Assembly (NCBI GenBank): GCA_903846555.1
Contig: CAINBI010000064.1
Location: forward strand, 1-43,312
Source: an uncultured Pseudomonadota bacterium
GTDB taxonomy: Bacteria; Pseudomonadota; Gammaproteobacteria; Burkholderiales; Methylophilaceae
Length of the DNA: 43,312 nucleotides
Direction of reading: 5' to 3'
Of the stretch, positions 1,333-22,457 are shown piece after piece. A program made the translations under genes and the position numbers. Within the stretch, counting starts at the first letter, position 1; every line of letters starts with the position of its first letter. The notes under the pieces are model-generated. The model was not told the DNA's origin. It made no database searches and saw only the letters and a list, made by a program, of their open reading frames with translations.

Positions 1333-1335
1333 ATA

Positions 1336-1389
1336 GTATCTGGCTCCTCGACCTGGGCTCGAACCAGGGACACACGGATTAACAGTCCG
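1336..1389 (+). repeat. Left attachment site (54-bp tRNA-Asn 3' copy)
   Basis: It is identical over 54 bp to 22404-22457 and covers the last 49 nt of tRNA-Asn (including CCA) plus 5 nt downstream. Beyond 1389 the sequence departs from tRNA, so this copy has no acceptor 5' half or D-arm and is not a tRNA gene. An AT-rich stretch with a near-duplicate ACAAATAAT motif (about 1450-1469) follows and could bend DNA during recombination. Confidence 0.9.
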
Positions 1390-1484
1390 CTAAAACTACC
1401 TATTGATTACTTTTCCTCTTTATTGAATTTAAAAAATAATATAATAAATACAAATAATTACAAATAATCCTGTGTAATATGTTA

Positions 1485-1514
1485 TTGATTTTGTTTCCGT
1501 TATATTGCTATAAT
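1485..1514 (+). promoter_or_regulatory. Promoter of the element integrase
   Basis: TTGATT at 1485-1490 and a perfect TATAAT at 1509-1514 are separated by 18 bp, 34 bp before the integrase ATG. The putative arm sites lie immediately downstream, so integrase binding could repress its own promoter. Confidence 0.6.
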
Positions 1515-1517
1515 TTG

Positions 1518-1535
1518 CCTACACAGTGCCTACAC
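1518..1535 (+). repeat. Paired CCTACAC motifs, candidate left arm sites
   Basis: CCTACAC at 1518-1524 and again at 1529-1535 are 11 bp apart. A matching pair with the same spacing lies at 22334-22351 inside the other end of the element. Paired short repeats inside both att sites are characteristic of integrase arm sites. Confidence 0.5.
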
Positions 1536-1548
1536 GGATTTAAAAGCG

Positions 1549-2925
1549 ATGAAAAAAGAGAATTTCACGGCAGGTCGAATTGCCGCTTTTAAATGCGCTG
1601 AGGGCAAACAACAAACAATCTACTGGGATGCTAAAACACCAGGCTTAGGATTGCGCGTAACAAAAGCCGGTGCAAAGTCATACATCTTTGAAACCCGCTT
1701 CAATGGCAAGACTTTGCGCATTACGATCGGTGATGATCGCAGTTACTCAATCTCTCAGGCCCAAGTCATTGCTACCGAGCTTAAATCAAATACTGACAAG
1801 GCTATTGATCCTCGCCAATTGAAAGTAGATAAGCTGGTGCTGCATGAAGCGCGCCAGGTGCGCGAAAAGTCTATGAATGATACCTTGCTTGTTCCATGGG
1901 AAGAATATATCCAAGAGAACACTGCTAAAATTAGAGAGCCCTGGGGCCAGCGCCATATTGATGATCACATGAAAATGTCGGTTGTTGGTGGTGAGAAGCG
2001 CAAGAGAGGGGCAGGATTAACTCAAGAGGGCTTACTTAGGCCGCTACTGGTGCTTAACTTCAAGCAACTCAATCAAACGGTTATTACAAAATGGCTGCAA
2101 GATAACAGCCAGGGCCGACCTACACAAACTGCGCTGGCTTATCGATTGCTAAGAGCCTTTTACAATTGGCTATCGGAGCATGATATTTATAAAGACTTAG
2201 TTGTTGAGGACTTGCTGGCCACAAAGAAAATTAAATCGAATGTGCCCAAGGTATTGCCCCGCAAAGTTTCATTGCAGCGGGAGCAGTTAGCAAGCTGGTT
2301 TAAGGCGGTGAAATCTTTACCGTCACAGGTGCAACAAGTCTATTTGCAAGTATTACTATTGACTGGTGCGCGCCGTGAGGAGCTGGCCGAGCTGCAGTGG
2401 AATAAGGTAGACTTTAAAAACAAAGCAATTGAGATCAAAGACAAGGTTGATGACTCAAGACTGCGCACCATACCGCTTACGCCTTATGTTGCTATACTTC
2501 TTACTGACCTAAAAGCTGAGCTTAAATCAATGTTGGCGGCGCGCAATCATCGCAGTAAAACCAAAGAGCAATTAAGTGAATATGTATTCCCTTCTAGCGG
2601 ATCACGTGGTTATATTGTTTCACCGACGCATCGTATGTACACGGAGGCATTGAAGCGTGAAGGGCTTGAACATTTGGCGGCGCATGATTTAAGACGTAGC
2701 TTTGCAACTATGGGCGAAGAGGCCGATGTTTCCGATGGTGTTATTAAGCAGATCATGGGGCATAAACCGAAGAGCGGTGATACTACGGAAGCGCACTATA
2801 AGGTTAGAACTATCAGCCGCCTAAGAGATAAGCATATTGAGATCGAGCGCTGGATATTAGACCAGGCAGGCATCGAACAGCCTAAGCTTGTAGAATCATC
2901 ATCACGTTTAGCGCTTGTAAAATAA
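1549..2925 (+). CDS. int: Tyrosine-type site-specific integrase
   Basis: This is a 458-residue tyrosine recombinase that should insert and excise the element at tRNA-Asn. The N-terminal 90 residues or so resemble the DUF4102-type arm-binding domain of P4-like integrases (WDAKTPGLGLRVTKAGAKSY). A SAM-like core-binding region follows, then the catalytic domain. Visible catalytic residues are R275 (LLTGARREE), a Lys in the IEIKDKVDD hairpin, H379 and R382 (HDLRR), H405 (IMGHKP) and the nucleophile Y417 (AHYKV). The length is normal for the family. The gene sits 160 bp inside the left att repeat, with its own promoter. It is intact and unrelated to the truncated integrase upstream. Confidence 0.93.
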   Translation: MKKENFTAGRIAAFKCAEGKQQTIYWDAKTPGLGLRVTKAGAKSYIFETRFNGKTLRITIGDDRSYSISQAQVIATELKSNTDKAIDPRQLKVDKLVLHEARQVREKSMNDTLLVPWEEYIQENTAKIREPWGQRHIDDHMKMSVVGGEKRKRGAGLTQEGLLRPLLVLNFKQLNQTVITKWLQDNSQGRPTQTALAYRLLRAFYNWLSEHDIYKDLVVEDLLATKKIKSNVPKVLPRKVSLQREQLASWFKAVKSLPSQVQQVYLQVLLLTGARREELAELQWNKVDFKNKAIEIKDKVDDSRLRTIPLTPYVAILLTDLKAELKSMLAARNHRSKTKEQLSEYVFPSSGSRGYIVSPTHRMYTEALKREGLEHLAAHDLRRSFATMGEEADVSDGVIKQIMGHKPKSGDTTEAHYKVRTISRLRDKHIEIERWILDQAGIEQPKLVESSSRLALVK

Positions 2926-2938
2926 TACTAAATACCCG

Positions 2939-2966
2939 TTGACACGGTTCCACTATCTGATACCAT
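2939..2966 (+). promoter_or_regulatory. Promoter of hicAB
   Basis: A consensus TTGACA at 2939-2944 and TACCAT (preceded by TG) at 2961-2966 are 16 bp apart. The hicA ATG starts 8 nt after the -10 box and no Shine-Dalgarno sequence precedes it, so the transcript is probably leaderless or nearly so. Confidence 0.55.
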
Positions 2967-2973
2967 ATAAAAC

Positions 2974-3228
2974 ATGAATGCAACGCACAAAAAGACCCTA
3001 GAGGCTATCTTCACTAATCCAGTATCGAAGTCTCTTGAATGGCGTCGTATCGAAGCGCTGCTAGTTACCATCGGTTGCCAAGTGATTGAAGGCAACGGTT
3101 CAAGGGTAAGGTTTGAAAAGGATGGCTTGATTGCAACCTTTCATAGGCCGCACCCGGCAAAAGAAGCAAAGCCGTACCAAGTGCGTGATGCAAGACAATT
3201 TATAGAAAGTTTAGGAGTAAAACCATGA
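2974..3228 (+). CDS. hicA: HicA-family toxin
   Basis: This is an 84-residue protein of the HicA type: small dsRBD-like mRNA interferases that cleave mRNA and are neutralised by HicB. It belongs to the subgroup with LEWRRIEALL near the start and FHRPHPAKEAKPYQVRDAR towards the end. The residue pair usually written GSHH around the catalytic His in classical HicA reads GSRV here, so activity may depend on the His residues of HRPHP. It overlaps hicB by 4 nt (ATGA), the normal toxin-first order of this family. In an integrated element it would act as an addiction module that stabilises inheritance. Confidence 0.85.
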   Translation: MNATHKKTLEAIFTNPVSKSLEWRRIEALLVTIGCQVIEGNGSRVRFEKDGLIATFHRPHPAKEAKPYQVRDARQFIESLGVKP

Positions 3229-3560
3229 ATACAATGACACATAAGGGCTACGCTGCCCGTGTTGAATATAGCGAAGATGATGAGTGCTTTGTCGGGCATA
3301 TCGCTGGCATACGTGATGCAGTTGGCTTTCATGGCGAAAGTGTTGCAGAACTTCGCGCCGCATTTGAAGAAGCTGTAGATGATTATTTGGCGACTTGTGC
3401 AAAGTTAGGCCGTGAGCCTAATCACCCATATTCAGGACAATTCAGGTTGCGCTTAAAGCCTGAGTTGCATGCACGAGCTGCAATAGCGGCTGAGACCAAA
3501 GGTAAGAGCCTTAACACTTGGGTTTCGGAAGTTATAGAGCGAAGCGTTGCAACGGCTTAA
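3225..3560 (+). CDS. hicB: HicB-family antitoxin
   Basis: This 111-residue protein has the partial RNase-H-like HicB fold (YAARVEYSEDDECFVGHIAGIRDAVGFHG, residues 8-37). A C-terminal ribbon-helix-helix segment (FRLRLKPELHARAAIAAETKGKSLNTWVSEVIERS, residues 72-107, given as a landmark) follows. The first part binds and blocks HicA; the second binds operator DNA. The start codon overlaps the end of hicA, so translation is probably coupled. It should repress the promoter at 2939-2966. Confidence 0.85.
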   Translation: MNTMTHKGYAARVEYSEDDECFVGHIAGIRDAVGFHGESVAELRAAFEEAVDDYLATCAKLGREPNHPYSGQFRLRLKPELHARAAIAAETKGKSLNTWVSEVIERSVATA

Positions 3561-3563
3561 TGG

Positions 3564-3640
3564 CAGCGTAAAGGTTTAACCGCCGCCTGACGGTCTCAGG
3601 CAAAAGCGGCAACGCTGGTAGCTTTCTGAGGGATACCAGC
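3564..3640 (+). promoter_or_regulatory. Structured leader with competing hairpins
   Basis: The gap between hicB and the next gene can fold strongly. GCCTGA (3585-3590) pairs with TCAGGC (3596-3601), CCGC (3580-3583) with GCGG (3606-3609), and CAGCGT (3564-3569) with ACGCTG (3612-3617). A second hairpin, GCTGGTA (3614-3620) with TACCAGC (3634-3640), shares 3614-3617 with the outer stem, so the two are mutually exclusive. There is no U-tract. The next gene follows at 3683 after a GGAG-type ribosome site. No known riboswitch is recognised. Confidence 0.4.
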
Positions 3641-3682
3641 ATCGCCTAACCATATAGCAATACTTACTAGGAGTATCACCGC

Positions 3683-4114
3683 ATGGCTACTACCAATTAT
3701 ACAGAAACACTAGACAGTCAGGATTTTGTCGCACCTTATCATTACGTCCCCGTTATGGTACATAACGATGGCAGTGAGCATCAACTGGCGTCATCGTTAA
3801 TTTTGAAAGAAGCCGTACTTACTGGCCGAGAAGTATTCGACACTGATAAAAGGGTTATCGGCTGGAACGTAAAAAGATTGCCCTTCGTACCTGAGTCAAC
3901 CTTTACCGTCGGCCTTCAGATAGACGGTGTTAATGGGCCTGAATATATTAAATTAAAAAGCGGCTTACCTCACTCAGAGGCAATTGCCTTCGGTGAGATG
4001 GCAGCGGATGCCGCAGAAATACAGGGTGTAAAAGTGCTTTACGTGTCTGCTCAGCTAGATAGAGTGCTGTACGGAGAAAATACCTCCTTTGCAAAGGAGG
4101 CTAGTCATGTCTAA
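3683..4114 (+). CDS. Hypothetical accessory protein
   Basis: This is a 143-residue soluble protein without a recognised family, signal peptide or membrane segment. A ribosome site (AGGAG, about 3670) precedes the ATG. It reads as a compact alpha/beta protein with a YIKLKSGLPHSEAIAFGEMAA segment near residues 93-113. Its last codons contain the perfect palindrome at 4083-4100 that masks the ribosome site of the next gene, and the two frames overlap by 8 nt. The two products are therefore probably made in fixed proportion and may work together. Confidence 0.6.
   Translation: MATTNYTETLDSQDFVAPYHYVPVMVHNDGSEHQLASSLILKEAVLTGREVFDTDKRVIGWNVKRLPFVPESTFTVGLQIDGVNGPEYIKLKSGLPHSEAIAFGEMAADAAEIQGVKVLYVSAQLDRVLYGENTSFAKEASHV
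4083..4100 (+). promoter_or_regulatory. Palindrome sequestering a Shine-Dalgarno site
   Basis: CCTCCTTTGCAAAGGAGG is a perfect 18-bp palindrome. Its right half is a full-strength Shine-Dalgarno (AAAGGAGG) placed 6 nt before the ATG at 4107. Folded, the ribosome site is closed; ribosomes finishing the upstream gene would open it. This implies translational coupling. Confidence 0.65.
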
Positions 4115-4499
4115 TTTGACCACTCAAGAAATTAAGCTAAACAATTTCAACCTAAGTCTTGGAGCCGCTCTATTCAGTGATCCGCAACGTGAAAGAAATA
4201 ATGCTATCGTTGTAGCAAATACCTCAGATATTACGGCAAATATTAAACCAGGTGATTTGCTTCGAGTTGATTTTACATCGACCGATTTAACCGAAGGTCT
4301 TTATATCATTACGCTTGACGATGGGTGGATTGGCTATGGGTTCTTTCAACGTATGCCAGACCTTCGAATGCGCGATGAAACTGGGAGTCATCCTATTAGC
4401 TTGAAAACATTGAGCAGCATTAAAGTTGTTGGCAAAGTTAAAGACATTTATCGTACAGAACCAGAAGCGTTCGGCGGACGTTTAGTGTCTATCTACTGA
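4107..4499 (+). CDS. Small protein resembling an S24/LexA-type C-terminal domain
   Basis: This is a 130-residue protein; I chose the ATG at 4107 because of the AAAGGAGG site 6 nt upstream. Residues 42-115 follow the pattern of the S24 (LexA/CI) autopeptidase fold: ANIKPGDLLRVD, then EGLYIITLDDGWIGYGFFQR, a basic strand, and a closing SIKVVGKVKDIYR. The catalytic Ser of the usual SMxPT motif aligns with Asp here, and the Lys of the usual VKRL strand with Tyr or Gly. No DNA-binding HTH is present. It may therefore be a dead peptidase fold kept for protein-protein contact, for instance with a CI/LexA-type repressor. The fold assignment is by eye and tentative. Confidence 0.45.
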   Translation: MSNLTTQEIKLNNFNLSLGAALFSDPQRERNNAIVVANTSDITANIKPGDLLRVDFTSTDLTEGLYIITLDDGWIGYGFFQRMPDLRMRDETGSHPISLKTLSSIKVVGKVKDIYRTEPEAFGGRLVSIY

Positions 4500-4510
4500 T
4501 TTACCGATTA

Positions 4511-4570
4511 AAGCTGCGCCTAGCTCGACGGAGCGAAACTCAGGATACCTTTACCTGACCGGCGCAGTTT
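4511..4570 (+). ncRNA. Putative three-way-junction RNA leader
   Basis: A 10-bp closing stem (AAGCTGCGCC at 4511-4520 with GGCGCAGTTT at 4561-4570, one G-U pair) encloses two hairpins: GCTC/GAGC (4523-4534) and TCAGG/CCTGA (4540-4558). This cloverleaf-like fold sits 23 nt before a ribosome site (AAAGGAG) and ATG at 4606. There is no terminator U-tract. It could be a cis-regulatory leader or a small RNA; I do not recognise a known class. Confidence 0.45.
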
Positions 4571-4605
4571 CTCTAATTTAAGGTGATCGCTTAAAGGAGT
4601 GATTG

Positions 4606-5307
4606 ATGCCTAAAGATTTAAGAAGTCCATATAAACCATGCTTTCAGCATTATGCCAATTTGTCGGCGCTACCGCTTTGGGAGCTGATCGCTCTTAGTAT
4701 CAACCTAGATCCGGAAGAGCTAGGAAAGCACGGAAGGCCCGGTAGTTCAAACTACCCAAGCTATGCTTCTACTATTCATCTTTACCAGGGGTTTGAAAAG
4801 CAAAGGCGCATTGTGCTCTCTATTGCCAATAGTACAAACGACATTCCCTTTACCAACTCCAATGACACGGCGCCGATTGATGAGCGCTATGTTAAGTGTG
4901 AGGAGTTCCATCAGTGGGCGGTCAATCACAACGTGGATCTACCCAAAGAGTTTCCGTGGGGGCCAGCGCAGCCTGCCTCACAATATGCTGCGGAGCCTAC
5001 TTCTCTAAGGAATGGCCCCCCTATTCAGACGCATAAAATTAAGACAAGAGCTGATCCTTTAGATGATGCTATCTATGCAGCTTTAGGAAGCGCGATAAAC
5101 ACTAAAGTGAATGTTAGTGTGTTTGAAGCTCTTAAAATAATAGCGCAGGTTCCCCGGGGCTTACCCGGCTACATTGCACCTTTGGCCGGCGTTGATGAAG
5201 AGGGGGTTAAGTATTTGGACGCAAGTACGTCTACTGGCATTAATCATGTGACTCTAAAGAGTCTTGGTAATCGGTTACGATCTGCTAAGTTTAAAAACCG
5301 CTGTTAG
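4606..5307 (+). CDS. Hypothetical protein common in proteobacterial islands
   Basis: This 233-residue protein starts at ATG 4606, after AAAGGAG. It resembles a family of uncharacterised proteins often found in integrative elements. The N-terminus has a tryptophan/leucine-rich segment (FQHYANLSALPLWELIALSI) followed by an acidic DPEEL, and a middle segment ends in a VDLPKEFPW turn. The C-terminal region (EALKIIAQVP to GVKYLDASTSTGINHVTLKSL, residues about 165-225) looks like a small helical, possibly DNA-binding, domain. There is no signal peptide or catalytic motif. The function is unknown. Confidence 0.65.
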   Translation: MPKDLRSPYKPCFQHYANLSALPLWELIALSINLDPEELGKHGRPGSSNYPSYASTIHLYQGFEKQRRIVLSIANSTNDIPFTNSNDTAPIDERYVKCEEFHQWAVNHNVDLPKEFPWGPAQPASQYAAEPTSLRNGPPIQTHKIKTRADPLDDAIYAALGSAINTKVNVSVFEALKIIAQVPRGLPGYIAPLAGVDEEGVKYLDASTSTGINHVTLKSLGNRLRSAKFKNRC

Positions 5308-5339
5308 GCTCTGTACACCGTTGTTAGTCTCCATAAGGA

Positions 5340-5407
5340 CGTTATCTATCGGGCAAAAGCAATAACGCGCATACATTAGGAAACACTGTAAACACCGCAA
5401 TATGCGG
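5340..5407 (+). promoter_or_regulatory. Hairpin-containing leader before a small HTH gene
   Basis: Two stems are visible: CGTTAT (5340-5345) with ATAACG (5362-5367), and CCGCA (5395-5399) with TGCGG (5403-5407). The second lies just before the ATG at 5423 and may limit ribosome access. Like 3564-3640 and 4511-4570, it belongs to a run of folded gaps in the early operon. Confidence 0.35.
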
Positions 5408-5422
5408 GAAAGTGAATCCTAA

Positions 5423-5623
5423 ATGAACAACACTACTCAAAACGCAACGCTTCCTGAAGTTCTCTCTACAAAAGACGCAGCGCCTTTAATCAATCGTAAA
5501 CCACAAACTCTATATCGCTGGGCATGTCTTGAAGACGGTCCTATTCGCCCTTTGCGTATCAATGGCCGCCTAGCCTGGCTAGTTAGCGACCTAAAAAAAT
5601 TATTGACGGAAGGGAGTATTTAA
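5423..5623 (+). CDS. MerR/AlpA-like HTH protein, candidate excisionase or regulator
   Basis: This 66-residue protein is essentially one winged-helix/HTH unit: LSTKDAAPLINRKPQTLYRWACLEDGPIRPLRINGRLAWLVSDLKKLL. The pattern (target-selection helix, then a wing with R-INGRLAW and a closing helix) matches the excisionase/AlpA-like group of small DNA-binding proteins. Likely roles are excision directionality or control of the early operon. The next gene begins 1 nt after its stop, so they share a transcript. Confidence 0.65.
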   Translation: MNNTTQNATLPEVLSTKDAAPLINRKPQTLYRWACLEDGPIRPLRINGRLAWLVSDLKKLLTEGSI

Positions 5624-5624
5624 A

Positions 5625-5930: not shown

Positions 5931-5931
5931 C

Positions 5932-8938: not shown

Positions 8939-9423
8939 TTGCTGTGCAACACGTTAAAAATGACGAACTCTCAGAAAATACGGGCATCATGGGCATCATG
9001 CAAGGGCATCATTATAAAACCATGATGCCCAACAAAACTGAATTTGGGCATCGCCGCACATCACTTGTCTATAACAAGTGATGCCGTGATGTCCAAGAAG
9101 TTACCTTTTAGGTACTAACTCGCAAAAAACTACGTGCAAAGCCCTATGTGAGAAACAGGCAGCGTTTTGCATGATGTAATGTGTAAATTGCTCTAGGATA
9201 GTCGAAACCTCAACGGGTAAATGGATTTTTCACCCTGACATATAACTCAAGTTTGTTTACCATTACGCGCCGCGCGCGGGAGTGGTTTATACACCACCAA
9301 CTTGACACCTGGTAAACCAGTATCGCTGGCAAGTCGATTGATTTGTGGTAATTGGATTCTAGGTGCTTTATAGTCTTAACAAGATTTAAGGCTTGAATTG
9401 ATTCCGCAAAGGTAAGCAATACT
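8939..9423. other. 485-bp gene-free region downstream of the primase
   Basis: The first 150 bp hold the iteron-like candidate origin listed separately. The rest contains GTGGT/ACCAC (9282-9297), a CTGGTAAACCAG palindrome (9309-9320) and a GTTTACC motif near 9255 that is the inverse of GGTAAAC at 9311. A GC-rich CGCGCCGCGCGCGGG run is at about 9266-9280. These resemble operator or replication-control sites. TTGACA at 9302-9307 has no well-placed -10 partner. I see no coding potential. Confidence 0.5.
8982..9095. other. Candidate replication origin with iteron-like repeats
   Basis: GGGCATCAT occurs directly repeated at 8982-8990, 8991-8999 and 9004-9012, inverted (CATGATGCCC) at 9021-9030, and partially at 9046-9053. 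An 8-bp perfect stem, TCACTTGT/ACAAGTGA, follows at 9061-9081, then a degenerate inverted copy around 9080-9094. It lies directly after the primase-helicase gene, the usual place for an origin recognised by such a protein. Confidence 0.6.
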
Positions 9424-9777
9424 ATGAGCATCCATGATCAGTTAAATGATGAAATTGCAAAAATTCTTGCGCAGCCCCATGGCAAAGGTAGCTACAAAAT
9501 TAACGCGCTTGATACAAATAAGGATTCTTGTAGCCTGGCAACTGGATTGGCATCGAATAAGCTTCAGTCTCAGTACATCAAGTTTTTCAATCGTCCTTTA
9601 CCTGCGTGGGCTACGCTTGAACATCCTCTTCACATAGCGCATTTATGCGACATAGCCATTCAAAGACAAATCGAATTGCCGGAGCAACGGGCAATGACCC
9701 CGGAAGAGGAAGCACTGGAAGAGCTGCAGGGCAAGAAAGCTTTGCGCAATCGCTTCGACCGCTTCAACGCAAGATAA
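9424..9777 (+). CDS. Hypothetical protein
   Basis: This 117-residue soluble protein has no recognised family. The N-terminal half is mixed; the C-terminal half is charged and helical (MTPEEEALEELQGKKALRNRFDRF). The ribosome site is weak (AAAGGTAAG about 10 nt upstream). It stands alone between the candidate origin and a convergent membrane-protein gene. I can say nothing reliable about its role. Confidence 0.5.
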   Translation: MSIHDQLNDEIAKILAQPHGKGSYKINALDTNKDSCSLATGLASNKLQSQYIKFFNRPLPAWATLEHPLHIAHLCDIAIQRQIELPEQRAMTPEEEALEELQGKKALRNRFDRFNAR

Positions 9778-9798
9778 TAGGCAATTGCCTAGCGCGCC

Positions 9799-10107: not shown

Positions 10108-10189
10108 ATCCACCTTTCATCTGGTAAGCACACGCCCTAGGGGGCGGACGGATGCTTCAATAAATATACGATACGATACCTTATGAATA

Positions 10190-10205
10190 CACTAGCCCTC
10201 TAGTG
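10190..10205. promoter_or_regulatory. Candidate operator between divergent genes
   Basis: CACTAG-CCCT-CTAGTG is a perfect inverted repeat in the 128-bp gap between the membrane-protein gene (minus) and the AlpA-like gene (plus). A short repeated ATACG run (about 10166-10177) lies beside it. It may bind the AlpA-like regulator encoded 30 bp downstream and control the virion-gene operon. Confidence 0.5.
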
Positions 10206-10235
10206 ATATTAAATGAAATCTAGGGCAAAAACATA

Positions 10236-10457
10236 ATGAATCACATCGATACTGTTAATTTTGACGATCTGCCAGCATCAGGCTTTGTTCGGCAATCTCA
10301 ACTAATTCCAGGGGTATTGCCATTCTCTGGCCTCACACTTAAACGGCTAATAGACGCCAAATCATTCCCAGCGCCGATAAAAATAACTCCCAAATGTAAA
10401 GCCTGGCGCGTTGGGGACGTGCGGGAATGGCTGCGCAATCCTGTAGGGAGTACATAG
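10236..10457 (+). CDS. AlpA-like HTH regulator
   Basis: This 73-residue protein has the AlpA-type arrangement: FVRQSQLIPGVLPFSGLTLKRLIDAKSFPAPIKITPKCKAWRVGDVREWL, i.e. a recognition HTH followed by a short wing and a closing helix with WRVGDVREWL. In P4-like elements AlpA controls integrase or excision. Here it heads the operon of ejection-protein genes and its stop is 1 nt before the next start. It may therefore switch on the late module. A palindrome at 10190-10205 is a suitable binding site. Confidence 0.7.
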   Translation: MNHIDTVNFDDLPASGFVRQSQLIPGVLPFSGLTLKRLIDAKSFPAPIKITPKCKAWRVGDVREWLRNPVGST

Positions 10458-10458
10458 T

Positions 10459-11013: not shown

Positions 11014-11015
11014 GC

Positions 11016-15700: not shown

Positions 15701-18700
15701 GGTACGTATATTACCGAGTCTCGCTTTGGTACTGAAGTAACGCATAAATCTCCCAATGCCCGTGGTGTTGCTAAACTCGATGATCTAGCCTATGATTTTG
15801 ATAAGCATCAATTTATAGAGCTATCAAGTGGAAAACAATACACAGACAAACAGTTTGCAGAACTCGCCAAAACCAAGGGAGCAAGAGACGTTGCTGCCGG
15901 GCGCACAACGCTTGAAAGAGCAGCTCTCGCACATACCTTTATATCAGGGATGGACGAACGGAGCCTGGAACGGCTTTCACAGCTCGCACATCAATCTCTA
16001 GCGAATACTCAACTAGAAAAACGGTTCTACCAGGCTAACACCAACACCCGGGGGAGCTTCTCCCCATCAAGCAATACAATCACCCTTCTAAAAAACGCAG
16101 ATCTCTCGACATTCTTGCACGAGCTGGGCCATTCATTTTTAGAAATGGACGTTAATCTTGCGGCGCAACTTTCGGGCAACACTCAGTTTACTGAAGGCGA
16201 GCAAGAGATACTCAGCGATGTAGGATCACTGTTTAACTGGTTCGGTCTGCAAGGCAACATAAACGCGCAGCTGGATCAATGGTATGCGATGACTATCGAA
16301 GAGCAACGCACCTACCATGAGAAAATGGCAGAAGGCTTCGAGTCTTACCTCTTCGAAGGTAAGGCCCCTAGCATAGAGCTTCAGCCATTATTTCAGCGCA
16401 TGCGCGCTTGGTTTATGCACGTGTACCGCAACTTATCCAAATACTTGTCCGATGCTGGCGAGACTCTCACGTCAGAAGTGCGCAGCGTGTTCGATAGAAT
16501 GCTGGCATCTACTGAGCAAATCAAGCTTTCACAGCAAGCGCGCAGCATGCTGCCATTGTTTGAGACAGCAGACCAGGCGGGCATGACGCCTGACGAGTTC
16601 GCTGCCTACCAAAGACTTGATCCGCAAGCCACACAGGATGCGATAGCAGAGCTTCAATCCCGGGGGCTGAGAGATATGAAGTGGCTGAGTAATGCACGGG
16701 CCAAGCAGCTTAAAAAGCTTCAGAAAGAGGCAGACGGCCTGCGTCGTGAAGTCCGCAGTGAAGTCACATCTGAGATCATGAGTCAGCCGGTGTACCGCGC
16801 ATGGACATTCCTCACTGCGAAACTGTCCGCAGACGATAAACTCACGCCGGGCATTCGCTTAAAATCAGATCCGAATGTGGTGGACGAGACACAGGACAAC
16901 TTATTCACTGCAATTGCCAAGCTTGGCGGTATCAACAAAGACGCGGCCATCTCAGAATGGGGCGTTGATTCTAGGGATAACCCGCAATCAGGTGTGTTCG
17001 GCAAGCCTGTATTGCGTAAGAATGGCGGCCTGGCATTGGATGCAATGGCCGAGCTGTTAGCAGAACGCGGCTACCTGCCAGTAGATAAAAACGGCAAGCA
17101 CGATATACGTGATCTGGAAGAGCGATACAGTGAGCAGGCGCGCGGTAACAAGCAAGTAAGCCAGGCATACGATTACAGTCAGGATCAAGCCCCGATACCA
17201 GGATCAGATCTTAATACTGACGCATTAAAGGCGGGTCGACTTGACCGTGGCGCACTAGCTGAGACGTATGGCACGAAGGAGGGATCACCGGTTACTGGGT
17301 TGAATACCTTGCGCATGACTAGCACTACCGGACTGCATCCTGACATCGTTGCTGAAATGTTCGGCTTTAGTTCTGGGGATCAGCTAGTGAAAGCTTTGCT
17401 TGATGCGCAGCCACCCAAGCAAGCGGTCGAGGATGCAACCGATACACGGATGCTTGAACGACATGGCGACTTGTCCAGTCCGGAAGCACTAGGCCGGGCG
17501 GCTGATAAAGCCATTCACAATGATGTACGTGCGCGCATGATCAGCACTGAATTAAACGCACTAGCGAAAGCAACCGGTAAAAAAGCCACTTTAGCTAGTG
17601 CTGCGCGCGAGTTTGCCACGGCCATGATCGCACGTATCAAGGTGCGCAACATCAAACCTAACCAGTTCGCCGTTGCAGAAGCCAAGGCCGCTAAGAATGC
17701 GGCAGCAGCGATGCGTAAGAGCGACCTTGAAACGGCCGCAGCAGAGAAGCGCAATCAGCTGGTGAACAATTACGCCACTAAGGCCGCGTTAAATGCACGT
17801 GATGAAATTGACCAAGGCGTGGCCTATCTGCGCAAGTTTGGCAGTGATGGCGTACGCAAATCAATTGACGTAGACTACCTAGATCAAATCGATGCGATGC
17901 TTGAGCGCTTTGACTTGCGCACGGGCGTCAGCTTAAAAGCGATTGATAAGCGAACCGCGCTACTTGAATGGATGAATAAGCAACGCGACCAAGGCTTGGA
18001 GCCTGACATTCCGCCAGAGTTGATGAACGAAGCCTTGCGCATGTCCTATAAAGACATGTCACTGGAAGCGTTCCGGGGGCTAGTGGACTCAGTGAAGCAG
18101 ATCGATCACCTAGGTCGCCTTAAAAATAGACTGCTTACTGCAAAAGACCAGCACACCTATGAGGCCATCAGAGACATAATCACCACTAGCATCATAGAAA
18201 ATGCCGGGGATCGGAAAGCCAATACCCGTACACCAACAACCAACACCGGACGTGCGATCCAAGGCTGGAAGAACTTCTGGGCTTCGCACTTAAAAGCCTC
18301 TATCTGGGCCCGCATTATGGATGGCGGACAAGACGGCGGTCCTGTTTGGGAATACTTTATCCGCAGTGCAAATGAGGCTGCGGACTTTGAAACTCACGAA
18401 CGCGGCAACGCTACGAATGCACTGAGCAAGATACTTGCTCCGGTATTTAAGCTGGGCAGGATGGGTGGCAAAGGCCAATATTTTGCCAGCATCGATCGCA
18501 GTTTGAATCGTGAGTCGCGCATTGCGATTGCATTGAATACTGGCAACGCGAGCAACTATCAGCGCTTACTAGGCGGTGAAGGATGGACAGCGCAGCAAGT
18601 GCAACCTGTACTCGACTCACTGACTAAGGCCGAATGGGATGCCGTGCAAGCGATCTGGGATCATTTCGAGACTTATCGTCCGCAGATTGCGGCTAAAGAG

Positions 18701-20179
18701 CGACGTGTGTATGGTAAAGAACCGAATTGGGTAGAAGCAACCGCGGTTCATACCGCACATGGTGAATATCGTGGGGGGTATTACCCGATAAAGTACGACC
18801 CAAATGCAAGTCAGCGCGCAGAAGAGCACGTCGATGCAGAAGGCGCAAAACGTCAACTGCAAGGCGCTTACACCAGTGCTACTACACGACGCAGCTTTAC
18901 CAAGACTCGCGTCGATGAAGTCAACGGCCGCCCTTTGCTATACACACTAGCCGGGGTGTACTCAGGCGTGAATGATGTCATCCATGATTTAGCCTGGCAT
19001 GAGTGGCTAATCGATGTGAATCGCTTGATGCGGTCATCAACGATCGACAGTGCGATCCGTGATCACTACGGCCCAGAAGTAAAACGTCAGTTAAAGGCAT
19101 GGATACAAGACATCGCCGAAGGTGAACGAGGCGCAGATAACGCAGGCGAGATGGTGCTGGGCAAGCTTCGCCAGGGCGTGAGTATCGCAGGCTTGGGATT
19201 CAATGTTTTAAGCGCAGCCATTCAGATCACCGGCTTTAATCAATCCATCGTTCGTGTCGGTGCCAAATGGATCGGGCGCGGCGTCACTAAATATCTGGCC
19301 AGTCCTATCCAGTCAACGCGTGAAGTTACCGAGCAGTCTGAATTCATGGCTGACAGGTTCCGTACACAGTTCCGCGAGCTGAATGAGCTACGTAATAGTG
19401 TGCAGGATCAGTCAGCCGCAAAGCGTGCATTACAAGACGGGGCGTACTTCATGATGACACGCGTCCAGCAAATGGTCGATGTGCCTACATGGCTAGGCGC
19501 ATACGAGAAAGCGATTAGCCAAGGCAATGCTGAAGAGCGCGCGGTGTCTTTAGCAGACCAGGCAGTAATCGAGGCGCAAATGAGTGGCATGTCGAAAGAC
19601 TTATCCAAGATCGAGCGCGGCGGTCCTGCGTTGAAACTGTTCACCGTATTTTATTCTTTCATGAATACATCGTTTAATCTCGGTGTAATGAAAGCGATGA
19701 CTGAGAAAAACAAGGCCAAGCTTGCCGCCGACTTTCTTTTACTCTATGTAGCTGGTCCAGTGCTCACCCTAGCCCTAAAGAACGCACTTACTCCAGGGGA
19801 TGCTGACGATGACTGGGATTTTGAAGCACTAGCGAAAGCACTGCTAGGTGAAAGCCTAGGCTTTTTAATGGGGCAGATGGTCGTAGTCAGAGAGTTTGCC
19901 GAAGCCGGCAAGAATGCATTCGGACTAACCAATGGTAATTATGGCTACCAAGGCCCAGCGGGTGTACGCGTGATTGCAGATACCACGAAGTTCGTACAGC
20001 AGACGCAGCAAGGCGAGTTCGACGACGCATTCCGCAAGGCTTCAATTAACTTGGTTGGCCCACTGTTTGGCTTACCAGCCGCGCAAGTCAATCGCTCAAT
20101 CACTGGCATTAATGCTTTGACTGACGGTAAGACGGGCAATCCTGCGGCGGCAATATTAGGCTATCAGGAGCCACACTAA
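12761..20179 (+). CDS. Giant polyvalent ejection protein with ART-like and HExxH domains
   Basis: This 2472-residue protein is by far the longest gene here and corresponds in place to T7 gp16 (1318 residues). The N-terminal 450 residues include glycine/alanine-rich hydrophobic stretches. Residues about 661-795 match the ADP-ribosyltransferase-like domain of phage polyvalent proteins (FKTWFADSKVV, VVYHGT with H683, then FNPNDPNILRQ). A second conserved block follows at about 800-960. A zinc metallopeptidase-type motif, HELGHSFLE, lies at H1120-E1121-H1124 with E1128 as candidate third ligand, preceded by ADLSTF. The rest is helical, and the C-terminal 170 residues contain hydrophobic helices (FLLLYVAGPVLTLAL near 2325) suitable for inner-membrane insertion. 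No lytic transglycosylase motif was recognised. It is probably injected with DNA. Confidence 0.75.
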   Translation: MALDPKVLSDIYGDNGVLANPFPTAKEYQPEQVAQGIKIGRNKGIEALLAADHLPQLQDELDQDHWNEIVKTSPKLAKQMQEPAFAAVAHDDTGNLSKVEGAVNFLGSSLKAGTLDLMGAGAKLLDAVQPFTLSEGDAAVLYKNDPKKLQDMQMNSPSMFLSRFAKAMTEGSNQTMEDISPSAKQQYNDLQYRTLDPNKAAYLHPVKVIGDALRSLPTTAATALTIYLTRGAAAEADAQAIAAGLTTAEAKSAAIAAATKTATLVGATSEGSIGYAQQANQTAQDAAAVSDENLAQSPKYQELLANGYTHETAKAKLVADTAEQSGIIAGIVDAAVNAVGGHFLGKIISEGGGIVKSVAKGLVNEGSTELVQSAGEQLGENASLKANVDPTQSLSKGVVESALQGLFVGSLTGGALNGIHGVANRFEEKKREAEQATQHRDALTQLDKLSSESLLRARDPATFQQFIASAAQDGPVQDVYIDANVLAQSGAVEQLAKVSPAVREQFNEAISTGGSVRIPLDEYTAHIAGTQLNQGIVDHIKLDPNGMTFAESEHFQQTYQEEFNAELDKVTQEHTGDEAFKESAATVQNEILRQLNETGRYTSEVNDTNAMVAGAHFAVRAAQLGMTPEELYKLRPLKVNGESILGDSYNQDGALQTDTNNFKTWFADSKVVTPEGNPQVVYHGTDKPFTKVNMKKGAQGVFWVTSNKQAIEDGAIGAAGTGTIMSLYANIKNPAGWKEYDQLSLDEIEHRGFDGVVLPNKDGTFEAIIFDPKQVKSATKNNGNFNPNDPNILRQSTPEQKGIAKLFKALTENDAVFQYGKSTATDMQQVFDDIVPGTVKVDLAIAPEGIDEQYTVFPMDATGKVLRDQEGTVSVYPDGKVEINVLNWEKGYGGSGIYAAVGNWAFNNNKVFSGDREGITPTGKMRRLENMISLALKFGTTDHIAPHPEQMHELGFDWKTGDTEYNLEQMLLASYKAIRNGTYITESRFGTEVTHKSPNARGVAKLDDLAYDFDKHQFIELSSGKQYTDKQFAELAKTKGARDVAAGRTTLERAALAHTFISGMDERSLERLSQLAHQSLANTQLEKRFYQANTNTRGSFSPSSNTITLLKNADLSTFLHELGHSFLEMDVNLAAQLSGNTQFTEGEQEILSDVGSLFNWFGLQGNINAQLDQWYAMTIEEQRTYHEKMAEGFESYLFEGKAPSIELQPLFQRMRAWFMHVYRNLSKYLSDAGETLTSEVRSVFDRMLASTEQIKLSQQARSMLPLFETADQAGMTPDEFAAYQRLDPQATQDAIAELQSRGLRDMKWLSNARAKQLKKLQKEADGLRREVRSEVTSEIMSQPVYRAWTFLTAKLSADDKLTPGIRLKSDPNVVDETQDNLFTAIAKLGGINKDAAISEWGVDSRDNPQSGVFGKPVLRKNGGLALDAMAELLAERGYLPVDKNGKHDIRDLEERYSEQARGNKQVSQAYDYSQDQAPIPGSDLNTDALKAGRLDRGALAETYGTKEGSPVTGLNTLRMTSTTGLHPDIVAEMFGFSSGDQLVKALLDAQPPKQAVEDATDTRMLERHGDLSSPEALGRAADKAIHNDVRARMISTELNALAKATGKKATLASAAREFATAMIARIKVRNIKPNQFAVAEAKAAKNAAAAMRKSDLETAAAEKRNQLVNNYATKAALNARDEIDQGVAYLRKFGSDGVRKSIDVDYLDQIDAMLERFDLRTGVSLKAIDKRTALLEWMNKQRDQGLEPDIPPELMNEALRMSYKDMSLEAFRGLVDSVKQIDHLGRLKNRLLTAKDQHTYEAIRDIITTSIIENAGDRKANTRTPTTNTGRAIQGWKNFWASHLKASIWARIMDGGQDGGPVWEYFIRSANEAADFETHERGNATNALSKILAPVFKLGRMGGKGQYFASIDRSLNRESRIAIALNTGNASNYQRLLGGEGWTAQQVQPVLDSLTKAEWDAVQAIWDHFETYRPQIAAKERRVYGKEPNWVEATAVHTAHGEYRGGYYPIKYDPNASQRAEEHVDAEGAKRQLQGAYTSATTRRSFTKTRVDEVNGRPLLYTLAGVYSGVNDVIHDLAWHEWLIDVNRLMRSSTIDSAIRDHYGPEVKRQLKAWIQDIAEGERGADNAGEMVLGKLRQGVSIAGLGFNVLSAAIQITGFNQSIVRVGAKWIGRGVTKYLASPIQSTREVTEQSEFMADRFRTQFRELNELRNSVQDQSAAKRALQDGAYFMMTRVQQMVDVPTWLGAYEKAISQGNAEERAVSLADQAVIEAQMSGMSKDLSKIERGGPALKLFTVFYSFMNTSFNLGVMKAMTEKNKAKLAADFLLLYVAGPVLTLALKNALTPGDADDDWDFEALAKALLGESLGFLMGQMVVVREFAEAGKNAFGLTNGNYGYQGPAGVRVIADTTKFVQQTQQGEFDDAFRKASINLVGPLFGLPAAQVNRSITGINALTDGKTGNPAAAILGYQEPH

Positions 20180-20247: not shown

Positions 20248-20442
20248 ATGCGGATATATGGGCAGGATTGGCTCAACACATTAAAGCGAGGTGAGAAGCA
20301 CCCAAAGGCCGTTCTCACTGACCATGAAGTTGAGCTGGTGCGTAAGTTACGTGACGAAGGAATGAGCTTTAGGGGGATCGCCGCTAAAATGGATATTGGA
20401 AGGACTACCGCGTGCGATATGTGCGCATATCGCACGCGCTAA
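20248..20442 (+). CDS. Small HTH protein
   Basis: This 64-residue protein is mostly one resolvase-like HTH: LTDHEVELVRKLRDEGMSFRGIAAKMDIGRTTACDMC. The same unit forms the C-terminal half of the next gene. It follows the giant gene by 68 nt and its TAA overlaps an ATG (TAATG) in the next frame. The last codons lie in a long palindrome (20409-20438). It could regulate the packaging genes or bind DNA near a packaging site; neither is shown. Confidence 0.6.
   Translation: MRIYGQDWLNTLKRGEKHPKAVLTDHEVELVRKLRDEGMSFRGIAAKMDIGRTTACDMCAYRTR
20409..20438. repeat. Perfect inverted repeat, 13-bp arms, 4-nt loop
   Basis: The arms 20409-20421 and 20426-20438 are perfectly complementary around TGCG. It covers the end of the small HTH gene. 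There is no T-tract, so it is not a classical terminator. Possible roles are a packaging recognition site, an operator or an mRNA processing signal. Confidence 0.6.
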
Positions 20443-20477
20443 TGGTCGGAGTTGTAAAATTAAGAAAGAATACCGGT

Positions 20478-20837
20478 ATGCCCAGACAATCTACTTTTAC
20501 TCAGGCAGTAGCCACCATTATTTGCGAGCGACTTGCCGCAGGTGAGCCGCATCAAATAATTTGTAGAGATAAGGTAATGCCTCCGAGTAGAACTGTTTAT
20601 GCATGGCTCAAGGTAGACAGTGAGTTTGCCGCGCAATACGCACGAGCAAGGCATTTAGGTAGGGGGAAATCTATTAAACGTACCCTCATTTCGGAGCAGG
20701 TGCGCAAGCTCCGAAATGAGGGAATGAGTTTCGCAAAGATTGCAGCAAAGTTTGAAATTGGCAAGATGACCGTGCGAGACATTTGCGCATATCGCATCCG
20801 TCTGTACGGTTCTAAATATAAAGTTAAGGAGTATTAA
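20478..20837 (+). CDS. Chimeric TerS-type HTH plus resolvase-like HTH protein
   Basis: This 119-residue protein starts at the ATG that aligns with the start of the downstream TerS; an ATG at 20442 (TAATG) would add 12 residues. Residues 1-60 (FTQAVATIICERLAAGEPHQ to EFAAQYARARHLG) parallel the N-terminus of the TerS-like protein. Residues 70-112 (ISEQVRKLRNEGMSFAKIAAKFEIGKMTVRDICAYRIR, split here at landmarks) parallel the upstream small HTH protein. It therefore looks like a fusion of its two neighbours' domains. It lacks the TerS C-terminal part, so it may bind the same DNA without engaging the large terminase. Confidence 0.6.
   Translation: MPRQSTFTQAVATIICERLAAGEPHQIICRDKVMPPSRTVYAWLKVDSEFAAQYARARHLGRGKSIKRTLISEQVRKLRNEGMSFAKIAAKFEIGKMTVRDICAYRIRLYGSKYKVKEY
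20683..20722. repeat. Perfect inverted repeat, 15-bp arms, 10-nt loop
   Basis: The arms 20683-20697 and 20708-20722 are exactly complementary. It lies inside the chimeric HTH gene at the domain junction. The corresponding stretch of the upstream paralogous gene is not palindromic, so coding constraint does not explain it. The candidate roles are the same as for 20409-20438. Confidence 0.6.
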
Positions 20838-20838
20838 A

Positions 20839-21336
20839 ATGGCTAGACCCTCAAGTTTTTCACAAGAAATAGCGACCATCATTTGCGACCGCCTTGCAGA
20901 AGGTAAAACGCTCCGCGCAATATGCCAGGACGAGATACTGCCTTCACGTGTCACAGTACAAAACTGGGTGATCAAGGATGTCGAAGGCTTCGCCGCGCAG
21001 TATGCACGAGCGAGAGACGTGGGTCTTGATGTAATGGCCGACGAACTTTTTGAAATTGCAGACGACGGCCGCAATGACACGTACATAGACGAAAATGGCA
21101 ACGTGCGCACTGATCAGGATGTTATCGCAAGATCAAGGCTTCGCGTTGATACGCGCAAGTGGTATCTATCCAAGATGGCTCCTAAGAAGTACGGCGATAA
21201 GCAGGCTATTGAATTGACAGGAGCGGAAGGTGCCCCAATTACGATTGCGCATAGAGCCGATCGCGTTGCAGAGTTGATGGCACTAGCTGCATCGCGCAAA
21301 GCGAAATATGACGAAGCCATTGATGGGCTAGTGTAA
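20839..21336 (+). CDS. terS: Terminase small subunit-like packaging protein
   Basis: This 165-residue protein of the TerS-like type has an N-terminal HTH (ATIICDRLAEGKTLRAICQDEILPSRVTVQNWV, given as a landmark, residues 11-45). Then come EGFAAQYARARDVGLDVMADELFEIADD and the family's closing segment SRLRVDTRKWYLSKMAPKKYG (residues about 95-118). TerS recognises the packaging site and hands DNA to the large terminase. No large terminase lies next to it or anywhere in the element, whereas phages nearly always carry the pair together. Satellites such as PICIs use a solitary TerS to redirect a helper's terminase. It starts 1 nt after the upstream gene with an AAGGAG site. Confidence 0.75.
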   Translation: MARPSSFSQEIATIICDRLAEGKTLRAICQDEILPSRVTVQNWVIKDVEGFAAQYARARDVGLDVMADELFEIADDGRNDTYIDENGNVRTDQDVIARSRLRVDTRKWYLSKMAPKKYGDKQAIELTGAEGAPITIAHRADRVAELMALAASRKAKYDEAIDGLV

Positions 21337-21354
21337 GGCCTGGCTTAGCCACAG

Positions 21355-21377
21355 GGCTACTTCGGCAGCCTTTTGTT
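21355..21377 (+). terminator. Intrinsic terminator after the packaging genes
   Basis: GGCTAC-TTCG-GCAGCC forms a UUCG-tetraloop hairpin with one A-C mismatch, followed by TTTTGTTT. It lies 18 nt after the TerS-like gene and closes the late operon. Confidence 0.75.
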
Positions 21378-21589
21378 TGGGTAACGCTTTCTAGCAAGTT
21401 GCTCCCAGTTTCCCTTCATCTGTTACCCCCGCGTTACTCCTTAAATTAATCTTAAGTGGAACGGGGTAAAAATCTATAAGTGTTATTTTGACGAATGGTA
21501 AGTATTTGCATTTTTGTTACCTCAATGAATCTGCGCATTAACAACAAAATTGCAGTATGCTACTTATAAAATTGTGAGAGTTTCATCTT

Positions 21590-21838
21590 ATGGCTGATCG
21601 AGTAACAAAATCAAGAAAAGAGATAATGGATCTGTTTAAGCTGGAAGCGAAAAAGCTTGATATTTGCAATAGTATTTATATCGGTCCGGTTAACGCTCAA
21701 GCCCCTGATAAGACCGGATGTAATTGGGTGCTATGTATAGGTGGTGGGGAAAAGGGTCAGGCTCGTGAGTGTGCCCGGATATTAGAGCAATTCAATACTT
21801 TGCTTCGCTCAAAATACAATATTCCAGTTGAGGATTAA
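21590..21838 (+). CDS. Hypothetical protein (accessory)
   Basis: This is an 82-residue protein of unknown family. It has a charged N-terminal helix (KSRKEIMDLFKLEAKKLDI), a short central strand region (GCNWVLCIGGGEKG) and a C-terminal helix. It lies after the late-operon terminator; weak promoter-like boxes (TTAACA at 21538, TACTTA at 21561, 17 bp apart) suggest independent expression. It converges on the membrane-protein gene at 21870. The element's right-end position suggests cargo rather than core function. Confidence 0.5.
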   Translation: MADRVTKSRKEIMDLFKLEAKKLDICNSIYIGPVNAQAPDKTGCNWVLCIGGGEKGQARECARILEQFNTLLRSKYNIPVED

Positions 21839-21869
21839 AGAGCTAGATATTTCACTGAGTCAACTAGGA

Positions 21870-22202
21870 TTAAGCTTTTGATAATTGGAAAGCAAGCTGC
21901 ACTGCCGATAAAACGAAAATACATAAGACAATCGACCACAGCCGACCAAGTAGCGCATAGGCTCTGTGGCTTGAGTTGCCTGCGCATTTCCACAGTGATA
22001 ATGCCAGCCACGCATAAAACAGCCACACGGCCAGTAATGCTGCAAATGCAAAGATGGATGCCGGCGTTTTTACTACAGCCTCTTTGGCTAGGCCAGTGAG
22101 CACGGTTATTGGTAACAATGTTCCTATATAGCCAAACCAAAAGACTTTCCAAAGTTTAGCTTCGCCCGAGTATGCTTTTGTGATCCATGTATTTTTGAAC
22201 AT
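21870..22202 (-). CDS. Small multi-pass membrane protein (accessory)
   Basis: This 110-residue protein has about three transmembrane segments: residues 22-40 (VFWFGYIGTLLPITVLTGL), 48-68 (PASIFAFAALLAVWLFYAWLA) and 86-105. It has an N-terminal soluble start, NTWITKAYSGEAKLWKVFW, seen in uncharacterised island proteins. It is encoded against the element's main direction, next to the right attachment site, the common place for cargo. No Shine-Dalgarno site is obvious before the ATG. The function is unknown. Confidence 0.55.
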   Translation of the reverse strand: MFKNTWITKAYSGEAKLWKVFWFGYIGTLLPITVLTGLAKEAVVKTPASIFAFAALLAVWLFYAWLALSLWKCAGNSSHRAYALLGRLWSIVLCIFVLSAVQLAFQLSKA

Positions 22203-22333
22203 AGTTGGCAGGGCTTTAACAGTTAGTATGAAAGGCTAGGTTTCATTCTAATTGAAAAACAATAAGGGTGCAGAGTGGTTTCTGTTATTAGGTTCTAGCC
22301 ATAGCGGATAACGTCCGGCATTGATGAAATTTT

Positions 22334-22351
22334 CCTACACAACGCCTACAT
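22334..22351 (+). repeat. Paired CCTACA motifs, candidate right arm sites
   Basis: CCTACAC at 22334-22340 and CCTACAT at 22345-22351 are 11 bp apart, the same sequence, orientation and spacing as the pair at 1518-1535. They lie about 53 bp inside the right attachment repeat. Confidence 0.5.
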
Positions 22352-22373
22352 GAAGGAATTTTCAGCGGAAATG

Positions 22374-22399
22374 AAAAAGCCCCACATCTCTGCAGGGCT
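22374..22399 (-). terminator. Intrinsic terminator of tRNA-Asn
   Basis: Read on the minus strand, AGCCC pairs with GGGCT and is followed by TTTTT, 10 nt after the tRNA CCA end. The element thus supplies a new terminator for the tRNA; the other att copy has its own at 1303-1332. Confidence 0.6.
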
Positions 22400-22403
22400 C
22401 TCT

Positions 22404-22457
22404 GTATCTGGCTCCTCGACCTGGGCTCGAACCAGGGACACACGGATTAACAGTCCG
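22404..22457 (+). repeat. Right attachment site (54-bp repeat within tRNA-Asn)
   Basis: It is identical to 1336-1389. Integration restored the 3' part of the tRNA gene, leaving the complete tRNA on this side. The core repeat runs from just past the CCA end to the anticodon stem (ending at CAGTCCG). Confidence 0.9.

Follow-up and report, generated by a model that had tools for sequence, protein, structure and literature searches.

Introduction

Phage satellites of the PICI (phage-inducible chromosomal island) and P4 types carry an integrase, an AlpA-type regulator and a primase, together with their own TerS in many PICIs, and no capsid or tail genes. Capsid-forming PICIs (cf-PICIs) carry head and packaging genes. 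Satellites described so far divert packaging, reshape the capsid or carry a complete head; we know of no PICI- or P4-type satellite with ejection proteins. Here we describe an integrated element in a contig of an uncultured Methylophilaceae bacterium (CAINBI010000064.1; the window, i.e., the whole analysed stretch of 43,312 nucleotides). The element resembles PICI- and P4-type satellites in its integrase, AlpA-type regulator, primase and TerS and in the absence of capsid and tail genes, but differs from them by a set of ejection genes, to which 46% of the element is given over as coding sequence. Its main genes lie on the plus strand throughout, unlike the divergent regulatory layout of PICIs. 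Like a cf-PICI it carries part of a virion; that part, however, is an ejection core and TerS only, and no capsid, portal or TerL of its own was found. With a probability of roughly 55%, we consider it a phage satellite, integrative and mosaic in make-up, whose helpers are podoviruses of the BPP-1/epsilon15 kind and which would supply its own ejection core to their particles.

Two described satellites are close in part. PICMI, a small int-alpA-primase satellite, is packaged as a concatemer in normal-sized heads; its authors found no terS, and the available sections of their article mention no virion gene (PMC10803314). AH14b is a 16.8-kb primase-bearing prophage satellite in which, according to the available portion of the report, no terminase or lytic gene was found and all identified virion proteins came from the helper (PMC4936722). 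Among the matches listed in the full-text literature, which leaves subscription papers largely outside, the excerpts described no satellite with ejection proteins. No word beginning "ejection" occurs in the EcCIMP1 paper (PMC11773190) or in a review of hitcher elements (PMC11389934); in the retrieved extracts of the satellite literature, "ejectosome" occurs only in the references of one article (PMC12324425), and those of Molecular Piracy name ejection proteins only in a reference (PMC6893505). If our reading is right, delivery, and not packaging alone, can be parasitised. Such elements would then provide a natural test of the interchangeability of ejection proteins, of cargo choice and of the protection of incoming DNA by injected polyvalent proteins, and could widen satellite detection, if virion genes are there taken as a sign of a prophage.

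Results and Discussion

An att-bounded element in which no head or tail genes were found

The element is bounded by two direct repeats of 54 nt, one of them inside a tRNA-Asn gene (Table 1). A repeat comparison within the window showed them to be 100% identical, as the initial annotation had claimed. Their start-to-start distance is 21,068 bp (element size ~21.07 kb), in a draft genome of 2.58 Mb and 170 contigs. The element, which has its own integrase, reads as follows: integrase, HicA/HicB, small genes of no assigned function with an HTH_17-type regulator, primase-helicase, AlpA-type gene, gp14-gp15-gp16, a helix-turn-helix (HTH) gene, a truncated TerS-HTH fusion and a full TerS. The AlpA/excisionase-type gene, the HTH genes and the HicAB pair had gone unmentioned in the initial annotation. 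The GC content is a mosaic that switches between host-like and phage-like values: 0.449 in the left arm, 0.504 in the primase, 0.445 in the spacer, 0.503 in the ejection genes and 0.419 at the right end, compared with 0.439 in the flank and 0.51-0.54 in related phage loci.

The initial annotation had reported no large terminase, portal, capsid, tail or lysis gene, and had held that portal, capsid or TerL homologues detected inside the element by profile search would speak against its reading. Such a search was run with 13 local hidden Markov models (HMMs), seven of them for TerL, portal, capsid, cement, tail-tube/nozzle and tail-fibre proteins, and none of these parts was found in the element; nor was any found in PHROGs scans of the submitted element open reading frames (ORFs). 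The same scans revealed no lysis gene, apart from the family label "endolysin" of gp15. No capsid-size factor was recognised in the element, and PHROGs and Pfam scans revealed no capsid-remodelling or packaging-interference gene of the PICI type.

Table 1. Features of the element, in window coordinates.
Feature	Position	Strand	Evidence
attL, 54-bp direct repeat (3' part of tRNA-Asn)	1336..1389		repeat comparison
Tyrosine integrase, 458 aa, Arm-DNA-bind_3	1549..2925	+	phrog_1 1.6e-35; PF00589, PF13356
HicA toxin	2974..3228	+	PF07927 1e-12, phrog_8887
HicB antitoxin	3225..3560	+	PF05534 2.3e-21, phrog_9151
Three ORFs, 143/136/234 aa	3683..5307	+	no family below E 0.01 (PHROGs, Pfam, PADLOC scans)
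HTH_17/excisionase-type regulator, 66 aa	5423..5623	+	phrog_66 8.4e-6; HTH_17 below Pfam cut-off
Three ORFs, no assigned function, 101/118/214 aa	5625..6929	+	ORF list, PHROGs/Pfam scans
Primase-helicase, 670 aa	6926..8938	+	AAA_25 2e-37, PriCT_2 4.5e-16; 68-70% identity to full-phage primases
Five clustered GGGCATC repeats, putative replication origin	8982..9052		motif count
117-aa ORF	9424..9777	+	contains 9673-9772 tract from phage gp16 interior, other frame
AlpA/excisionase-type regulator, ends 1 bp before gp14	10236..10457	+	phrog_2790 1.5e-4; PF05930 below cut-off
gp14-type ejection (internal virion) protein, 184 aa	10459..11013	+	phrog_418 1.4e-27; PF24072 T7_gp14
gp15-type ejection protein, 581 aa	11016..12761	+	phrog_1044 5e-8 (labelled endolysin); 46% identity to L009 gene in same position
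gp16-type polyvalent ejection protein, 2472 aa	12761..20179	+	phrog_9880 E=0 (C-terminus); LPD22, DarB-like stretch, ART-PolyVal, LPD37
HTH protein, 64 aa, also precedes terS in related phages	20248..20442	+	Pfam scan, phage-locus comparison
Truncated TerS fused to second HTH	20412..20837	+	PHROGs/Pfam scans, DNA comparison
Small terminase TerS, Sf6 gp1 type, 165 aa	20839..21336	+	phrog_1482 6.6e-44; PF20901
Two ORFs, no function assigned (82 aa plus, 110 aa minus)	21590..22202		ORF list, PHROGs/Pfam scans
attR, 54-bp direct repeat within tRNA-Asn (minus strand, 22409-22484)	22404..22457		repeat + tRNA gene

The ejection genes

Proteins gp14 to gp16 of T7-like phages form an internal core; they are the first to leave the particle, and they make up a channel through which the DNA passes. 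The three consecutive genes that had been described as internal-virion-type proved to be of the T7 gp14, gp15 and gp16 types. The weakest of these assignments is gp15, which appears to belong here by one PHROG, its position and its identity to the gene of the related phage locus L009; the gene at this position in a second phage locus, L008, likewise falls in a PHROG labelled endolysin. A HELGH motif at residue 1120 of gp16 lies within the C-terminal half that matches phrog_9880, and its H, E and H are invariant across five aligned proteins. A search of solved structures at E 0.1 returned no match for the gp14 profile, the gp15 profile or the gp16 protein. The gp16-type protein of L009 (12267-18962) has a Zeta_toxin match (PF06414, 7.4e-10) at about the place where the proteins of the window and of the phage locus L006 have ART-PolyVal, a difference that may be read as swapped effector domains in ejection proteins.

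We know of no role of gp14 or gp15 outside virions, and gp14-15-16 are retained in their normal virion order. Both points make it very improbable that the operon is unrelated cargo, expressed in the lysogen or the recipient as an effector or counter-defence locus (ART, metallopeptidase-like and DarB-like parts) and without a role in the particle. What speaks for cargo is the AlpA-type gene directly before gp14 and the view, in the accessible part of one study, that polyvalent proteins are injected with the DNA and act in the earliest phase of infection, in early host conflict (PMC5512222).

Over its full length gp14 is 74-78% identical to the proteins of L006 and L008, yet gp15 (30%) and gp16 (41-42%) are far more divergent. 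The portals of L006 and L008 are 74% identical to that of L009, a level similar to that of gp14, and this would be as expected if gp14 must fit the portal of a helper. The contrast between gp14 and its two neighbours would suit an interference device, in which satellite gp14-16, built into the procapsids of the helper as parts that do not fit, impair the infectivity of the helper, thus protecting host and satellite rather than serving delivery; PICIs can disturb helper life cycles, according to an excerpt of one article (PMC8989297). An intact, full 7.4-kb gp16 gene seems expensive for mere poisoning, however, and we regard interference as improbable.

The TerS block

TerS selects DNA for packaging. 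The TerS of the element matches solved chains titled Gene 1 protein / Terminase small subunit (4dzj, 1.8e-23; 4dyc), which we take to be Sf6 gp1; the Pfam name of PF20901 also indicates the Sf6 type. The initial annotation was right about a TerS-like gene, but not quite in calling it lone, for a truncated TerS-HTH fusion stands beside the full copy. By comparison of the sequences, 20248-21336 appears to be a partial tandem duplication of an HTH-terS unit in which the first TerS is truncated and joined to the second HTH.

Origin of the modules

Genes 67-80% identical to gp14 lie in four contigs of IMG/VR, each of which also holds portal, head and tail genes. A scan with the primase returned three of these contigs at 68-70% (their gp14 being 76-80% identical) and one further contig at 68%. 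The HTH gene, the truncated TerS and TerS also match the three contigs shared by gp14 and primase, TerS at 63%, 58% and 32%; the two higher values are the best TerS matches seen in a comparison that covered GenBank phages and the phage loci under study, with GenBank phages at ~45-50% among the matches listed. In GenBank, 64 of 50,697 phage records match gp14, all below 60% identity. They include Bordetella phage BPP-1 and Escherichia phage phiV10, to which the element is related at 30-38%; phiV10 we take to be akin to epsilon15. The same 50,697 records hold no near DNA match for window positions 1300-13200, and gp15 has no match among 72,556 plasmids. To judge by these similarities, the donor of primase, gp14 and TerS is a single podovirus lineage of the BPP-1/epsilon15 kind, and this same lineage is perhaps the helper.

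The related temperate podoviruses (G1287 and G1288 in our set of IMG/VR contigs) share with the element the gp14-15-16 order, the primase and the HTH-TerS block, and differ from it in having their own TerL, connector/portal, major head protein, tail proteins and endolysin and a different integrase. Their order is repressor, primase, HTH, TerS, TerL, portal, protease family, head, cement, tail, gp14-15-16, tail. In the element the order is permuted, i.e., primase-AlpA-gp14-15-16-HTH-TerS, with the ejection genes before the TerS block and without the TerL-portal-capsid-cement-tail block before gp14. The phage parts were named from gene order, and one phage was then checked against PHROGs, which upheld TerL, the major head protein, a pair of tail proteins (of which the latter is the one that we call nozzle), a tail protein with a fibre-like N-terminus, endolysin, integrase and transcriptional repressor. 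The gene that we call portal carries the PHROGs label head-tail adaptor, and the gene between portal and head falls in a family labelled protease. At least one related phage carries a CI-like repressor. G1287 measures 42,641 bp and appears to be a complete genome in permuted form, because ~1.68 kb would part TerL from portal across its ends, as against ~1.65 kb in G1288. Related phage genomes measure ~42.6-43 kb, and the element is thus about half as long.

Two related phage records carry an integrase of 351-353 residues. Although this protein and that of the window both belong to the broad phrog_1, the window integrase has no tblastn match at E 0.01 in the related phage contigs, and the two integrases are different. 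The primase-helicase with iteron-like repeats had also been predicted correctly: all five GGGCATC copies of the element lie within 71 bp directly 3' of the primase gene, whereas three related phage loci have none after the primase and no more than a single copy elsewhere. When the 485-bp region was resampled 1,000 times by a Markov model, 16 of the resamplings contained a 7-mer present at least five times; the stronger argument for the cluster is its confinement to 71 bp of 21 kb. The AlpA-type assignment of the gene before gp14 depends on a phrog_2790 match of 1.5e-4, the Pfam AlpA match falling under its cut-off.

A 100-bp tract (9673-9772) is 97% identical, in a different reading frame, to the interior of the gp16 gene in L006 (13324-13421) and L008 (15162-15261). 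The other aligned DNA is mostly 65-80% identical, with 89% in one gp16 stretch against the phage locus L007 and 83% over 92 bp against L006; therefore the element and the phage lineages probably met fairly recently. We considered the tract as a packaging site and rejected this, since the differences among window, L006 and L008 are, by eye, largely synonymous when read as part of the 117-aa ORF, which makes a recombined coding scrap likelier. An exact 24-base scan of the tract listed one viral contig, a lower bound, as these 24 bases also occur in L006, which comes from a different contig.

Satellite or decayed prophage

The main alternative is a defective prophage, that is, a temperate BPP-1-like phage that lost its TerL-portal-capsid-tail and lysis genes by deletion and rearrangement and is now inert, its ejection genes not yet decayed. 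The best relatives of gp14 and primase are indeed full phages, and the TerS block contains a truncated duplicate. A single deletion of a G1287-type prophage is ruled out by the module order, the integrase and the repeat cluster. To arrive at the element by decay, a phage would have had to undergo several deletions, have its TerS block shifted to a place after gp16, exchange its early region and integrase, and acquire AlpA and the repeat cluster, all without damage to any main ORF. With neutral drift of 1% per site we estimate that about 4 stops would be expected in 9.7 kb; gp14-16 contain none in 3,237 codons.

The ratio of nonsynonymous to synonymous substitution (dN/dS) between element and phages is 0.10 for gp14 (to L006), 0.18 for one gp16 segment and 0.16 for the primase, compared with 0.043, 0.044 and 0.056 between two full phages; for TerS it is 0.14-0.22, against 0.32 for its phage pair. 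Silent sites are saturated for gp15, for the C-terminus of gp16 and in a number of other pairs, and dN/dS is 0.09-0.22 overall where computable. Constraint thus persists; with the exception of TerS, it nevertheless appears weaker than among the phages.

We favour a satellite over a decayed prophage, at about two to one, and regard decay as a serious but unlikely account. The label "satellite-like" of the initial annotation is supported by the different integrase, the element-specific repeats, a TerS without TerL, the permuted order, the intact main ORFs and three other integrase-primase-gp14 elements without head or tail genes (see below). Several points weigh against the satellite. The dN/dS of gp14, of the gp16 segment and of the primase is higher than that of the phage pair by a factor of 2-4, which also fits relaxed constraint, TerS being the opposite. 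The different integrase, the permuted order and the three similar elements would point to a separate lineage rather than a deleted copy, but no exact sibling was found: the other two gp14-bearing genomes among 187 of the family hold prophages with TerL, portal and capsid, and the matches in the class and the phylum are prophages, contig ends or a remnant. In IMG/VR, the tail (nozzle) gene accompanies gp14 in all 39 loci that extend 3 kb upstream. The other capsid-less elements vary in the ejection genes kept, and two of them, L032 and L055, have no clear att repeats. The host genome (G000) contains no portal match that would point to a helper prophage of this type. Finally, the survey started from gp14 and is biased to elements that retain it.

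Similar elements in other genomes

Matches to gp14 were found in 3 of 187 genomes drawn from the family, 15 of 399 from the order, 4 of 369 from the class and 5 of 398 from the phylum; these counts include the window each time, and one genome occurs in two draws. We scanned 74 loci (40 from IMG/VR, 8 from genome contigs, 22 round gp14 matches, 3 round portal matches, and the window). All 74 hold gp14; they form 65 clusters at 95% gp14 DNA identity, and 70 have at least 3 kb upstream. A nozzle gene lies within 3 kb upstream of gp14 in 65 of these 70. The exceptions are the window, L032, L055, L056 and L066, and the first four have an integrase and a primase instead. A few other bacteria, then, hold similar shell-less elements.

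L032, from a metagenome-assembled genome of Burkholderiales, has integrase, primase (38% identical to that of the window), gp14 and gp16; no gp15 was found in it. L055 has integrase, primase and, of the ejection genes, gp14 only. L056 has integrase, an AlpA-like gene, primase, a Bbp16 protein, gp14, gp15 and two genes at the gp16 position (phrog_1145 and phrog_684), and by our reading it splits a tRNA-Leu gene. HMM scans of the three found no head or tail-tube genes, save the Bbp16 protein of L056, whose role we take to be cement. The integrase and AlpA-like gene of L055 are 56% identical to those of L056, which indicates a common backbone. The initial annotation had suggested a search for att-bounded, capsid-less relatives in other hosts, and had held that relatives that are all full prophages, with this copy uniquely deleted, would speak against a satellite. 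Capsid-less relatives with integrase, primase and gp14 exist, whereas clear att repeats for L032 and L055 and an exact sibling do not emerge; the nearest gp14 and primase relatives seen are full phages, but the present element is neither a simple deletion of them nor alone in lacking a capsid. L032, L055 and L056 retain the normal phage gene order, so each could be an internal deletion, as a defective prophage would be.

A portal search of the 399-genome order draw matched 15 genomes. In each of the 13 portal loci with enough context gp14 is present as well, its match being weak in three (1.5e-6 to 6.6e-13); the two others lie on contigs of ~3 kb and were left out of this count. No portal-only remnant occurs among the 13, which argues against decay. 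Of the 15 gp14-bearing genomes of the order, ten hold a portal prophage, and G000, G230 and G339 have no portal match at all, their gp14 lying away from a contig end; G281 (portal on another small contig) and G444 (gp14 at a contig end) are uninformative. Three cases of gp14 without portal against none of portal without gp14 are suggestive, not significant.

The present element, L055 and L056, in genomes of one order, and L032, in a Burkholderiales metagenome-assembled genome, would be four examples of a recurrent strategy in which capsid-less integrative elements bring their own gp14(-15-16) core, with TerS in the present one, so that stolen podovirus particles inject satellite-coded proteins that alter what enters the cell or exclude the helper. 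We put this forward tentatively, at somewhat less than even odds.

A possible life cycle

We infer that such a satellite would be induced, packaged and delivered as follows. It would integrate at the 3' end of tRNA-Asn by its own integrase and, after entry of a helper, replicate by its own primase-helicase from the GGGCATC repeats. Its Sf6-type TerS would steer the TerL of the helper to element DNA, and, because related phage genomes are about twice its size, one helper head could hold about two copies without capsid remodelling. Late in the cycle AlpA-gp14-gp15-gp16 would be expressed, and gp14-16 may assemble on the helper portal, replacing the helper core or beside it; such dressing of helper capsids, which the initial annotation had proposed, is plausible in that TerS and gp14 stem from one phage lineage. 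The particles, for which the helper would provide TerL, portal, head and tail, may deliver with the DNA a satellite trans-envelope channel and an injected polyvalent protein with ADP-ribosyltransferase, metallopeptidase-like and DarB-like parts as putative effectors. Defective prophages with broken structural genes may get help from others, according to a passage of the hitcher-element review (PMC11389934).

Additional observations

A PADLOC defence search of 10 proteins, 8 of them from the window, assigned none to defence. The phrog_9747 proteins that precede gp14 in L032 and L055 (31% identical to each other) are, by appearance, candidate small terminases. L083 we judged to be a decayed prophage. 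In L066 (10972-18977) a gp14-type match is followed by a 1170-aa ORF of phrog_992 (gp15 family); the interval 12600-18977 contains segments of 228-300 bp in two or three copies, and no portal or nozzle gene was found nearby. The Bbp16-type protein of L056 (10515-10958; PF21190, 3e-15) stands alone just before gp14. An integrase 58% identical to that of L056 occurs in L220 (IMGVR_UViG_2914902374_000002) alongside a gene of a primase family and two head genes, for the major head protein and for a head maturation protease, which may be read as a related integrase with another virion part, as in cf-PICIs.

Left of attL lie a transposase-like ORF (338-745; phrog_2422, 2.4e-6) and a truncated tyrosine integrase (652-1269) that reads toward attL; they probably remain from another element that had inserted in tandem at this tRNA-Asn gene. 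An aminotransferase gene adjoins both the window element (22730-23980) and L056 (19394-19900), with 68% identity over 166 residues; despite this common neighbour the tRNA genes used differ, Asn in the window and Leu in L056.

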